Origin: Natrarchaeobaculum aegyptiacum
GTDB taxonomy: Archaea; Halobacteriota; Halobacteria; Halobacteriales; Natrialbaceae
DNA length: 64,000 nt
Reading direction: 5' to 3'
Assembly: GCF_002156705.1 (NCBI RefSeq)
Contig: NZ_CP019893.1
Location: 930,001-994,000 of the forward strand
Part shown: positions 7,246 to 11,598 of the stretch, in pieces
Layout: the number at the start of each line of letters is the position of its first letter
Position numbering within the stretch: position 1 is the stretch's first letter
Notes under the pieces: generated by a model
Told to the model about the DNA's origin: nothing
The model's database searches: none
Seen by the model: only the letters and a program-made list of their open reading frames with translations
Made by a program: the position numbers and the translations under genes

Positions 7246-7589
7246 GGCTCGTTCACCTCGAGTTCGCTATTCGGCACCTCACACTCTACTCCGTTCGAAT
7301 CGGCCCCGTCGTTACCTGACTCGAGCACCTCGAGGCGCTCTCGCGTCGCCTCGAGTTCGGCACGCACCTTTCGCAACTCGACCTCGTGAGCCAGCAACAC
7401 CGACAGGAAGAACGCCCGCTCCGGGTCCGGCGGGTTCGCGTAGCCCGCCGCGTCGGCGAACGCCCGCCCGCGGTCGAACAGCCGATCGAAGTCGGCCTGA
7501 TACTCCCGCCGAAGGGCTCGCCCCATCGGCTCCCACTCGCGCTCGAGCCCTCGGAGCGCGTTCCGATAGGTCGGGTTCGTTCGTCCCAT
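7242..7589 (-). CDS. Small helical protein of the PolB2 operon
   Basis: A 115-residue protein of unknown function, encoded between the RecA-like gene and polB2. Its ATG shares one base with the upstream TGA (TGATG at 7587-7591) and its stop overlaps the GTG of polB2 by 4 nt, so the three genes must be translated together. The sequence is rich in Arg, Glu and Leu, with a predicted helical middle (AFFLSVLLAHEVELRKVRAE) that could form a coiled coil, and an acidic, low-complexity C terminus. No catalytic motif is visible. The position suggests an accessory subunit that binds PolB2 or the RecA-like protein. Confidence 0.75.
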   Translation of the reverse strand: MGRTNPTYRNALRGLEREWEPMGRALRREYQADFDRLFDRGRAFADAAGYANPPDPERAFFLSVLLAHEVELRKVRAELEATRERLEVLESGNDGADSNGVECEVPNSELEVNEP

Positions 7590-8326
7590 CAGAGACCCAC
7601 CTCGAGCGAGCGCTGTTCGGGGACTGGCGCGTCCACGACCGGCTCGACCGTCTCGACTGTCCCGAACAGGTCGGCCCAGTATGGAATCGTCGTCTGCCAG
7701 TACCGGCCATGCCAGTAGCCCGCCGTGAACGGCTCGTCGTCCTCGCCCTCGAGGCGAACTCCCTCACGCGTCTGCACGCACTCGACCGTCGCATCGGCGT
7801 AGTCGGCGACCGTTTCCGCCGCGTCCCCGTCGGCCGTCGTCACGACGACTGGACACTCGAGTGCCGCCGAAAGCGCCGACAGCGTCTCGAGACTCGCGGC
7901 CAACAGGTCCTCGCGCTCCCACGACGGCAGGTCCGGGTCCTGGTAGAGCGAGGCGACGTTCGGCGCGACGACCAGCCCCGCCCCGGAACCGGCCCGTCGA
8001 ACGACCTCCCGGACCAGCGAGTGGTGCTGGTAGGCGGTAAACGCCCGCGCGATCTCGAGGCCCGCGAGCGTTCGCCGACTCGGCGCGTGCTCGTACAGCG
8101 CGTGCGTCGAGGCCGTATTTCGCGCGTCGATCCAGTAGGCCGACCGCCCAGCCATCGCCGCCAGCCGGTCACAGACCAGCCGGTGAACGACCGTCGAACG
8201 CGGCGACGACACCTCGAGCAGCGTCAGTCCCGCGTCGTCGATCAACGCCGATTCCTCGACCTGTGGTCGGTGGTCCCCACCACCTGTCACTTCCTGCATA
8301 CTCGCAGGCTCGAGGGAGCGGTCCAT
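7589..8326 (-). CDS. RecA/RadA-like protein without a Walker A motif, PolB2 operon
   Basis: A 245-residue protein resembling the RecA-fold ATPase core: SAYWIDARNT and EIARAFTAYQHH match the region following the P-loop in RadA-type proteins. The expected GxxxxGK[ST] loop is missing; the equivalent stretch reads LTLLEVSSPRSTVV (residues 35-48), so ATP hydrolysis is unlikely. PolB2 genes in other archaea are often accompanied by such inactive RadA paralogues (recalled from published comparative work). The ATG at 8326 is preferred to the in-frame TTG at 8332 and the ATG at 8299 because it lies exactly as far from the tandem TTTCCGA element as the orc1 start does. It leads the operon and may guide the polymerase to single-stranded or recombination intermediates. 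Confidence 0.75.
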   Translation of the reverse strand: MDRSLEPASMQEVTGGGDHRPQVEESALIDDAGLTLLEVSSPRSTVVHRLVCDRLAAMAGRSAYWIDARNTASTHALYEHAPSRRTLAGLEIARAFTAYQHHSLVREVVRRAGSGAGLVVAPNVASLYQDPDLPSWEREDLLAASLETLSALSAALECPVVVTTADGDAAETVADYADATVECVQTREGVRLEGEDDEPFTAGYWHGRYWQTTIPYWADLFGTVETVEPVVDAPVPEQRSLEVGL

Positions 8327-8342
8327 AAGCAAGCGGGGGCCG

Positions 8343-8360
8343 TTTCCGATTTTTCCGATA
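8343..8360 (-). promoter_or_regulatory. Tandem 9-mer promoter element of the PolB2 operon
   Basis: The + strand reads TTTCCGATTTTTCCGATA: two direct 9-mers of form TTTCCGAWW. The element starts 16 nt outside the ATG of the RecA-like gene and covers the position expected for a TATA box of a leaderless transcript. The same element, with the same 16-nt spacing and matching flanks (GGCCG before, AACTG after on the + strand), precedes the orc1-like gene at 9680-9697. It is a candidate operator, or a core promoter shared by the two units. Confidence 0.7.
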
Positions 8361-8583
8361 ACTGCCGAAGCCCCGAATTCTTCATCCAGAGCTGATAAAC
8401 CGACGATCCGACGCTTCCGTTACGATTTCCAAAACTGGTGATTCCTGAGTGAGGTCGCGCTCGATCGCAGCGACACAGCGCGGACGCCAACGACCGCAGC
8501 CGCTGGTAGCTGATGACTCGGATGCGTTCGGTTGCGTCGCCAACAGAGACCCATTCGACTCACCACCTGGAGCGACGGCGTGG

Positions 8584-9663
8584 CTATCGCTCGCTCTCGC
8601 CGACCGCGCCGTCTTCCTCGCTCGTCTGGACCTCCTCGTCGACCACTCGATAGGACCGACCTCGGCGCTTGCCCACTGCCTCGATCAGGTCGTAGTGGAC
8701 CATCTTCGTCAGGTAGTTCCGGAGCGTCCGCTCGGTTTTTGGCTTCGTGACCCGGCGCTCGTAGGCGTCGTAGAGGTCGGTTGGCTCGATCTCGCCGGCG
8801 TCAGCGATTACCTCGTACAGTATCCGCTGGTGCTCGATCAGCCCCTCGAGGGTCTTCCGACGGATCGCCGTCTGAGCGTCCGGAATCGACGCCTCGATCA
8901 CGTCGTCGGTGAACTGGTCCGTTCCCCGTCGCTCCGCTCGCCGCGCTGCAGACCGCAGGATGCCGATCCCAACGCGCGCGTCACCCGAGGCTGCGTCCGC
9001 AATCGTCCGGAACTGGGCATCGGAGACGGCTCCCGGCTCGAGAGCTTTCTCGGCCCGCCGCTGGAGGATCGCCGCGAGTTCAGTCGTTCGATATCGGTCG
9101 AACCGAACCCGGGTGCTCGCGTGCAGGCGCGAGCGAATCCGGTCGTCGAGTCGCGCAAACAGTTCGTCCTCGCGGTTGGCGATCATGACCAGCGAAACGT
9201 GACGAAGCCGGTAGAGGTCGTAGAGCACGTCCGTCTCCTCGAGCTGGTCGACCTCGTCTAAGATGACGACGATCGGTCCCTCGTCGGCCGCCTCGAGCCG
9301 ACCGAACAGTTCGTCTTTCGGCGTCGATCGGTGGAGGTCCGCCGTCCGGTCGATCGCCTCGAGGATCGCGTAGAGTACCCGAAACCGGGTGTACTCCTGC
9401 CAGCAGTTGACGTAGGCGGTCCTGATTTCGGGGTCTTCCTCCCGGAGCTGCTCGAGCGTGTAGCGGGCGATACAGGTCTTGCCGACTCCCGTCGGACCGA
9501 AGAGAAACGCGGGCTCGGCTCGTTCGCCGTAGAGCAGCGGCTCGAGGGTCTCCGAGAGGTGGGTCACCTCGTCGTGACGATGGACCACCTCGGTCGGGAC
9601 GAAGTCCTCGCGCAGGACACGGGCGTCGACGATCACATCCACCCGTTTCGGCTCGAGTGACAT
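8584..9663 (-). CDS. orc1: Orc1/Cdc6-family AAA+ ATPase (short form)
   Basis: A 359-residue Orc1/Cdc6-type protein that binds and remodels DNA using ATP. Walker A is GPTGVGKT (residues 56-63), Walker B VVILDEVD (132-139) and sensor I includes ANRED near 162-166; a C-terminal winged helix follows, with QRILYEVIADAG near its start. It is shorter than typical origin-binding haloarchaeal Orc1 proteins (usually above 400 residues). The ATG at 9663 gives MSLEPKRVDV; a longer frame to 9852 runs through the promoter element and is rejected. No origin-like repeat array was recognised nearby, so a regulatory role, like that of Sulfolobus Orc1-2 in the DNA-damage response, is an alternative to origin firing. 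Confidence 0.88.
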   Translation of the reverse strand: MSLEPKRVDVIVDARVLREDFVPTEVVHRHDEVTHLSETLEPLLYGERAEPAFLFGPTGVGKTCIARYTLEQLREEDPEIRTAYVNCWQEYTRFRVLYAILEAIDRTADLHRSTPKDELFGRLEAADEGPIVVILDEVDQLEETDVLYDLYRLRHVSLVMIANREDELFARLDDRIRSRLHASTRVRFDRYRTTELAAILQRRAEKALEPGAVSDAQFRTIADAASGDARVGIGILRSAARRAERRGTDQFTDDVIEASIPDAQTAIRRKTLEGLIEHQRILYEVIADAGEIEPTDLYDAYERRVTKPKTERTLRNYLTKMVHYDLIEAVGKRRGRSYRVVDEEVQTSEEDGAVGESER

Positions 9664-9679
9664 AAACGACGCCGGGCCG

Positions 9680-9697
9680 TTTCCGATATTTCCGAAA
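9680..9697 (-). promoter_or_regulatory. Tandem 9-mer promoter element of the orc1-like gene
   Basis: The + strand reads TTTCCGATATTTCCGAAA, two direct 9-mers of form TTTCCGAWA. It starts 16 nt outside the orc1 ATG and overlaps the likely TATA position. Across about 27 bases it differs from the copy before the PolB2 operon (8343-8360) by one substitution and one inserted base. The match in sequence, orientation and distance makes chance unlikely and suggests a common regulator, possibly the Orc1-like protein itself. Confidence 0.7.
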
Positions 9698-9710
9698 CTG
9701 CTCGTGGCGC

Positions 9711-9914
9711 TCAGTCGGCCTCTGCGGGAGGACGGGGTCGGTGGCTGGTTCGCCGGTCGACCGTCGATCCGCAGTCCGGACAGACGAGGTACCGAACGCC
9801 ATCGACCCGGCACTCGAGCCAGTCGTGGGCGATCGGTCCCTCGTGGTCGCACGTCGGACAGAAGAGGACGGTCTTTCGCCGTCGGTCGTCAGTAGCGTGA
9901 GATGTCGACGTCAT
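9711..9914 (-). CDS. Small CPxC zinc-finger protein
   Basis: A 67-residue protein with two cysteine pairs, FCPTCDHEG and VCPDCGST, spaced like a zinc ribbon, and a short basic tail. It belongs to the large set of very small haloarchaeal zinc-finger proteins with unknown targets. It lies upstream of orc1 on the same strand, with a 47-nt gap that contains the orc1 promoter element, so it is probably transcribed separately. The ATG at 9914 is the only good start. Confidence 0.7.
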   Translation of the reverse strand: MTSTSHATDDRRRKTVLFCPTCDHEGPIAHDWLECRVDGVRYLVCPDCGSTVDRRTSHRPRPPAEAD

Positions 9915-11316
9915 CGCTAGAGGTTACGGGTCGGCAGGTAAACGCTTTGTCCGAAACTAACGATGGTTATGGATCGACGATTCTGACCGCACAAACAGCG
10001 GCCTGCCGAACGCACAGCCCAGCGAGGAGGTGTCACGCGGCCTGCTCGATTCGCGTAGAGAGATATTCGGTATCGCATCATAAGATTTATCGGAGAGTCC
10101 GGCCCAGAGCAGGAATCGACCCGACGAGTGCGAACGCGCAGGAAAAACAGCGATACGGCTCGACAACGAGCCGAAACCGTCGATCGGCACGGAGCGGTCG
10201 CGACCCGTGGAAAGGGTACAGTCAGTGAGCCGAACCTGGCGAGTGCTGTGCCGAACGGGGACTCGAGTGACGCCATCGGTAGTCCCAGCCACGGGACCGG
10301 CGACTGGAGAAACGTATCGTGCGCGGCCGTTCCAGCGTTCGAACCCGCTCGCAAGATCGATCGTGTTTCGAACGTCGATACTGCGAGACAGTGAACGGCA
10401 TCCCTCGACAGATCCAGGTCGGCCCGTCACCCGAGACCACCGCCTTCGCGAGCTGCCCCCCAGGGTAGCGTGCGGAGAAGGTCGCTCCAGATGTTGCGTC
10501 GAACGCTGGCTACGGCTGGTTGGATCTCGCATGCAGACAAAAAACCAGGACGACGCGTTCGTCTCGCCAACAAACCGGATCGAGCCACCCACTATCCGAG
10601 CAATCCTCGGTCCATGGAGTCGAGATTGGACACACCGATGGCCCCGCGATATCGACGCGGCAAACAGAGCACTCGCGAGCCGGCAGCGACAGCCACTATC
10701 ACCGAAACTCGAGTCGCGTCACGTTCGAGGGAGGGCGTGTCGAAGCTGTCCGTGCAAGTCGTTCCGACGGCGACCGAGTGCGAGTCAGGTAGTGCCCCGG
10801 TTGCTGGAGAGGGCGATTCCGACGGGCACGGTCAGAAATTGGGGCGTTCGGAAACCGAGCGATCCACTCGGGACTGGCAGAACGTCCTCGCAGTGAGACG
10901 ACGCGTCCGAAATCCCCGCAGTCGCCGATGGGAAACGAGGAGTCCCGGCTGCTGTCGGCTTCTGATCCGTGCCGGCTCGAGCTGGGCTCGAGTCGACGCC
11001 GTGCCGACCACGTTGAGCCTGCAAGTACCGAACGAACGGAGAACGCACACGTCGACGTCAGAATCAGGGGCCTCGCTACGGCCCGAACACGGACGTACCG
11101 ACCCCGGTAAATCCTATATCGCGATATGAAATTTGGTGTGGGTCGAAAATCAACCTCAGGATGTGAATTTCTACAAACCACTAGCTCTCCAACACCTGGA
11201 CTAACTAGATACCATCATAGGTTCGAAGAATAATATCACTACATGCGTATGCTGTGCGTCTATCCAACATAGCATGTGCCGGTTTCAAAATAACCCCCGT
11301 TAAAACCAGGGTGATA
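9915..11316. other. 1.4 kb gene-poor stretch
   Basis: No gene could be supported. The open frames, including one of 219 codons at 10470-11129, translate to Arg/Ser/Thr-rich sequence without domains and with the look of GC-rich non-coding DNA. Composition changes at about 11110, where an AT-rich stretch of about 200 bases begins. It contains no recognisable tRNA, transposase remnant or CRISPR-like repeat. It lies beside an orc1-like gene, but no origin recognition box pattern was recognised by eye. It may be decayed DNA or hold an unknown non-coding RNA. Confidence 0.4.
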
Positions 11317-11598
11317 TCAGGATCTCGAGTTCGAGCCTGCGACCTGCCCCATCGGTGAGACGAACCACGAGCCAAGCAGGACGAACAGTCCGACGATGGC
11401 CAGGATCACGCCGATCGGTGGATTAAGAAACAGTAGCGGAATGGCGACGACGAAGGCGAGTACACCGTTTTTTCTCACCGCTCGTTTCGGTGCATTTCCA
11501 CACGCAGTGCAGGTACCAGTTCCCTCCTCTAGAGGTTCGTTGCAGGCTGCACACGTTCTGGGCATGTTGTCTCTCTCGCTCTCTTCGCTCTTAGCCAT
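11317..11598 (-). CDS. Small zinc-ribbon membrane protein
   Basis: A 93-residue protein with an N-terminal zinc ribbon (CAACNEPL and CTACGNAP) followed by two closely spaced hydrophobic segments (LAFVVAIPLLFL and IGVILAIVGLFVLL) that should form a membrane hairpin. The start at 11598 gives MAKSEESERD; a second Met 11 codons later (MPRTCAAC) is also possible. Such zinc ribbon plus two-helix proteins are common and uncharacterised in archaea. It is isolated, facing away from the sulfide oxidation cluster. Confidence 0.6.
   Translation of the reverse strand: MAKSEESERDNMPRTCAACNEPLEEGTGTCTACGNAPKRAVRKNGVLAFVVAIPLLFLNPPIGVILAIVGLFVLLGSWFVSPMGQVAGSNSRS

Follow-up and report, generated by a model that had tools for sequence, protein, structure and literature searches.

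In Sulfolobus, the Orc1/Cdc6 paralogue Orc1-2 controls a DNA damage regulon (element DDRE) whose targets include a homologue of the DNA polymerase PolB2. The site of this protein is ANTTTC (PMC9738581). A cassette of polB2, an inactivated radA and arCOG07300, with an arORC2 gene adjacent in many euryarchaea and lexA present in the bacterial versions, is described in the available text of Makarova 2014 (PMC4104785). UV-induced genes of Halobacterium carry the motif TTTCACTTTCA (PMC2556686), which is the sole haloarchaeal UV motif found in the literature searched, while for replication it has been reported that origins are mostly situated next to orc genes (PMC3528665) and that the haloarchaeal origin box (ORB) includes CGGAAACG (PMC4164010). 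Little is known of how the damage response is regulated outside the Sulfolobales, or of what the numerous Orc/Cdc6 paralogues of haloarchaea and the inactivated PolB2 do.

The locus analyzed here lies in a 64,000-nucleotide stretch of the Natrarchaeobaculum aegyptiacum genome (the window). It resembles the Sulfolobus Orc1-2 regulon in that an Orc1/Cdc6 paralogue has a candidate site in its own promoter, the element is promoter-proximal and the PolB2 family is among the putative targets. On the other hand, the haloarchaeal site is a tandem TCGGAA with a strict 8-9 bp repeat, the putative targets include provirus integrases, and a damage response would here be deduced by analogy; ANTTTC occurs inside the box in only half of the orthologous orc promoters (29 of 58, i.e., it is not conserved), and the window has only an approximate version. 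Gene set and gene order are identical to those of the cassette in the available text of PMC4104785, so the Orc-PolB2 neighbourhood is already published; membership in the arORC2 family agrees with that text by neighbourhood only, and the text describes the neighbourhood, with neither a promoter element nor a provirus link. Like the box studied here, the Halobacterium UV-B motif is a tandem repeat just upstream of a TATA box, and its genes are damage-induced; however, its sequence, its repeat period (6 bp) and its genes (radA1, top6B) are different, and identity of the box with this motif was rejected as the sequences differ. With the ORB, the box has the CGGAAACG core and a family-specific pairing of Orc and site in common, but it is a direct rather than an inverted repeat, single and promoter-locked, and no unwinding region was recognized.

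Results

By its match to TIGR02928 (above cut-off), the Orc-like protein is a full-length Orc1/Cdc6, and its winged helix is strongly conserved. The AlphaFold model (pLDDT 85; best PDB matches 2qby_A, 1w5t and 2v1u) predicts that the Orc1/Cdc6 fold is intact and includes AAA+, lid and winged helix. The polymerase is matched by NCBIfam PRK05761, and the three-gene operon shows disrupted RadA and polymerase motifs, like the PolB2/inactive RadA/arCOG07300 cassette. Coordinates are given in Table 1. About 1.3 kb without a convincing gene (window 10000-11300) lies upstream of a zinc-ribbon-like ORF (9735-9917). Elsewhere in the genome, another Orc gene (G000:C1:1638313-1639977; L208, L212), with an open frame of 670 aa, is split by an intein-like in-frame insertion of ~550 nt. 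On a plasmid of Halalkalicoccus sp. CGA53, a gene for an SOS response-associated peptidase (L339:4610-5296) separates orc from the RadA-like gene; no recognizable box was found upstream of this peptidase gene.

Table 1. Features of the orc-PolB2 locus (window coordinates)
Feature	Position	Strand	Remarks
PolB2-type family B DNA polymerase gene, 785 aa	4888..7245	-	motif C altered: HGLVDSFW replaces YGDTDS
Small protein gene, 115 aa	7242..7589	-	arCOG07300 by position only, as in the available text of PMC4104785
RadA-like gene lacking Walker A (type: inactivated RadA)	7589..8299	-	corrected start ATG 8299
Probable TATA box of PolB2 operon, CTTATGG	8323..8329	-	CTTATG/CTTATC conserved at the same distance in orthologues
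Tandem box before RadA-like/PolB2 operon	8343..8360	-	gene strand TATCGGAAAAATCGGAAA
Orc1/Cdc6-like gene, 350 aa	8584..9636	-	corrected start GTG 9636; AAA+, Walker A/B, lid, C-terminal winged helix
Probable TATA box of orc, GTTTATG	9661..9667	-	conserved TTTAA/TTTAT at -30 to -26 in 58 orthologous promoters
Tandem box before orc-like gene	9680..9697	-	gene strand TTTCGGAAATATCGGAAA = TCGGAA-N3-TCGGAA

The two promoter sequences reported by the first-pass annotation were both found exactly where it had placed them (Table 1). Of the flanks that it described as shared, GGCCG is common to both sites, whereas AACTG, although near both, is one base out of register. A search of the window (64 kb) allowing up to 3 mismatches yielded the two promoter sites and one antisense self-match, as compared to an expected number of 0.03. 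The genome-wide regulon scan consisted of pattern searches; TTTCCGAWWTTTCCGA occurs in exactly 3 copies in the complete 3.93-Mb genome (reversed control, 0), one each upstream of the orc-like gene, the RadA-like/PolB2 operon and the integrase module of an integrated element. Relaxing the spacing (N2-3) added one site, within coding sequence. Random scatter of the element, which the annotation itself had named as grounds for abandoning its proposal, was thus not observed: apart from this coding match, there are only three copies, all of promoter type. Both units that it had singled out are confirmed as bearing the box; the third, the integrase module, had been missed. None of the remaining orc genes of N. 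aegyptiacum carries the box.

An alignment of 58 distinct clade-A orc orthologues (at least 60% identity) allowed the start codons to be reassigned. The annotation had counted 16 nt from each element to an ATG start codon; the count holds, but these ATGs sit within the TATA boxes. In 58 of 58 orthologues, orc begins at a conserved GTG-ATC that lies 27 nt beyond this ATG, and the start of the RadA-like gene (TATGCA) is likewise downstream of the TATA box. As the TATA place reads GTTTAAG or CTTATCG in many orthologues, with no ATG there, and as the downstream starts are conserved, the ATGs in the window are best read as parts of TATA boxes and not as starts, and the 16-nt leaderless spacing was rejected from these alignments. 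Conservation in the 58 promoters is limited to positions -62 to -26 from the start, i.e., box, spacer and TATA, with none upstream of the distal half-site. Layout and orientation are fixed (box, ~15 nt, TATA, ~27 nt, start codon), so that the box, rather than overlapping the TATA position as had been proposed, lies ~15 nt upstream of it. Judged from sequence, the transcripts of orc and of the PolB2 operon are probably leaderless.

Among 125 Natrialbaceae genomes, TCGGAANTWTCGGAA was matched 120 times. A permutation matched in composition and CpG had 7 matches, and the reversed control had none. Most matches of TCGGAANTWTCGGAA are upstream of orthologous orc genes, RadA-like/PolB2 operons or pleolipovirus-type integrase leaders (exact matches within coding sequence, i.e., L090/L091, L095/L096 and L335, were discarded). 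A chance origin of the paired element is ruled out by the window, genome and 125-genome counts as compared to the controls. Of 57 clade-A orc promoters, 45 contain the strict tandem; its orientation is the same throughout, and the distance from box to start is 58-60 nt in 43 of these 45; among clade-A RadA-like/PolB2 promoters, 28 of 34 have the strict tandem. These comparisons support a conserved and specific promoter element that the PolB2 operon has in common with orc.

The same architecture is found in Halococcaceae, Haladaptataceae, Haloarculaceae and Haloferacaceae. Named plasmids that show it belong to Halalkalicoccus, Haladaptatus, Halomarina and Salinigranum; orc1 of Halorussus and Halobacterium has a divergent form. 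A more distant Orc clade (~50% identity) has box variants such as CTGGAAGTTCTGGAA or TTTCCGGAAACGACCC; B-clade Orc loci carry TTTCCGGAAACGACCC even where the same genome also holds a clade-A locus. Genes preceded by promoters of the same geometry further include three Orc paralogues, five extra RadA-like genes, two HNH_repeat genes and, in Halovivax, an RNase_H_2 exonuclease-family gene, the last of which would fit a repair regulon. One orc promoter (G081:C1:321490-321513) has three tandem TCGGAA half-sites. A conserved small membrane-like protein is preceded by TCGGAATTTTCGGAAC in three genomes of a single genus, where the downstream layout differs (AGTAATATAG).

In N. aegyptiacum, the third copy is followed 62 nt downstream by a leader with strong folding (z ~-4) and then by a tyrosine integrase. 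This integrase is 63% identical to that of pleolipovirus Harhisp1 and 39-41% identical to those of SNJ2, HHPV4 and HRPV9, and is by homology an SNJ2-type pleolipovirus integrase. The leader itself has a conserved form, CCGACGGACAGC..GCGCGC..GTCCGCGGTCCCA (L003:1563-1650, and two further loci), with a strong hairpin, then a small ORF and the integrase; an Rfam search of the leader returned no family. Searching with the leader only (box left out of the query) identified 63 places in 45 of the 125 genomes. Among 60 distinct leaders, the box was strict in 36, a relaxed tandem in 16, a near-match by eye in 4 and absent in 4, and it was never in the opposite orientation. Clade-A Orc is present in 43 of the 45 leader-bearing genomes (P = 8e-14, Fisher test with phylogeny ignored), and one genome (G038) has a provirus with the box and no detected Orc of clade A or B. 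The box is absent upstream of the integrases of the isolated pleolipoviruses SNJ2, HHPV4, HRPV9, Halfgib1 and Harhisp1, which indicates that it belongs to a provirus group associated with Natrialbaceae. A scan of IMG/VR with the motif matched 62 contigs; among the matches listed, the 11 contigs with G+C >50%, no recognizable haloviral promoter was seen. Some provirus integrase promoters (four loci) have two boxes 75 bp apart.

Discussion

The analysis establishes the box as a genuine regulatory element with wide conservation, made of two TCGGAA half-sites 8-9 bp apart and placed ~15 nt above TATA in promoters that are probably leaderless. The central idea of the annotation is retained, with other start codons and another TATA geometry. 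We consider it reasonably probable, as the best explanation as a whole, that through this site one regulator would control three units, i.e., orc, the operon for the inactivated RadA, the arCOG07300-type protein and PolB2, and the SNJ2-type (pleolipovirus-like) integrase module, in response to DNA damage or replication stress. PolB2 would thus be among the genes controlled via the box. The most likely regulator would be the Orc1/Cdc6-like protein, a non-initiator turned transcription factor that would control its own gene as Sulfolobus Orc1-2 does, probably by activation and not repression. The Orc-like protein is the best candidate for the binder. It is the product of the locus that would bind DNA, with a predicted intact fold, and its own gene has the box in front. 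Box and clade-A Orc co-occur across genomes (P = 3e-20, Fisher test with phylogeny ignored), other orc genes of N. aegyptiacum are without the box, and the proximal half-site TCGGAAACG resembles the ORB in sharing CGGAAACG (PMC4164010). The Sulfolobus hexamer ANTTTC (PMC9738581) falls within the box in half of the orthologous orc promoters, though not in the window itself. On these grounds, we regard binding of the box by Orc as fairly probable. As for the signal, the balance tips slightly towards DNA damage or replication stress, by analogy with Sulfolobus Orc1-2.

Several observations count against this explanation. The UV-induced genes known in Halobacterium have a different motif (TTTCACTTTCA, PMC2556686), and the boxed provirus of G038 sits in a genome with no detected Orc of clade A or B. 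Orthologous orc genes without the box in their own promoter were found in true Natrialba, in Natronobiforma and in some Halovivax-like genomes. In true Natrialba, the comparison of promoters indicates that the box has been lost. The retention of orc without the box in these lineages counts against simple autoregulation. In addition, permutation gave no significant sign that the two boxes of a locus, before orc and before the RadA-like gene, change in concert (P = 0.07 overall; P = 0.55 for the divergent clade).

These last two observations are what would be expected if an unlinked transcription factor bound the box and controlled orc, the PolB2 operon and the proviruses, with Orc merely a target. 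Some genera whose orc orthologues have no box nevertheless keep it in a provirus, and binding by Orc is itself a prediction. Such a factor seems unlikely to us, though it deserves serious consideration, as the box tracks clade-A Orc across genomes and Orc is the sole recognized DNA-binding protein of the locus; moreover, the distinct variant of B-clade loci in genomes that also have a clade-A locus favours a factor encoded at the locus. Resemblance of the box to half of the haloarchaeal ORB, along with the usual adjacency of origins and orc genes (PMC3528665), could instead point to a replication element, i.e., a diverged ORB that serves for initiation by Orc or for its titration and whose promoter position is incidental. 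We judge this to be very improbable: there is one site per promoter at constant orientation and distance to TATA, no inverted ORB-like pair is present in 9600-11400, and the published haloarchaeal ORB expression has no match in the window. A replication origin at the locus was rejected, as no ORB-type inverted repeats were found beside orc. The fixed distance to TATA would suit a core-promoter variant that is constitutive, is recognized by a special TFB or TBP and carries no regulation, but at 15 nt above TATA the box is beyond the usual BRE position and, among thousands of genes, it is limited to the three gene classes and a few others; the chance that this accounts for the box appears to us to be slight indeed.

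Under the preferred reading, i.e., control by Orc, the occurrence of one box before orc, the PolB2 operon and the integrases suggests that the host has a regulon for damage or replication stress and that proviruses also tap it. Neither the shared box nor the provirus link was found in the literature searched. We further hold it possible, though we would not call it probable, that an Orc-controlled stress regulon marked by TCGGAA-N3-TCGGAA has the integrase module of a large family of pleolipovirus-like elements under its control, as an archaeal counterpart of the SOS-prophage relationship with Orc/Cdc6 in the place of LexA. As with LexA-controlled prophages in the bacterial SOS response, a mobile element would here make use of a stress regulon of its host; the likeness is one of analogy only, and the box system, unlike the bacterial one, has no LexA.

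With an 18-bp box and three classes of targets, a direct test is possible in culturable Natrialbaceae, e.g., Natrinema. If Orc does act through this box, the idea of Orc as a regulator of the damage response would extend from Crenarchaeota to haloarchaea, and the provirus link would explain how temperate viruses of haloarchaea sense the stress of their hosts.
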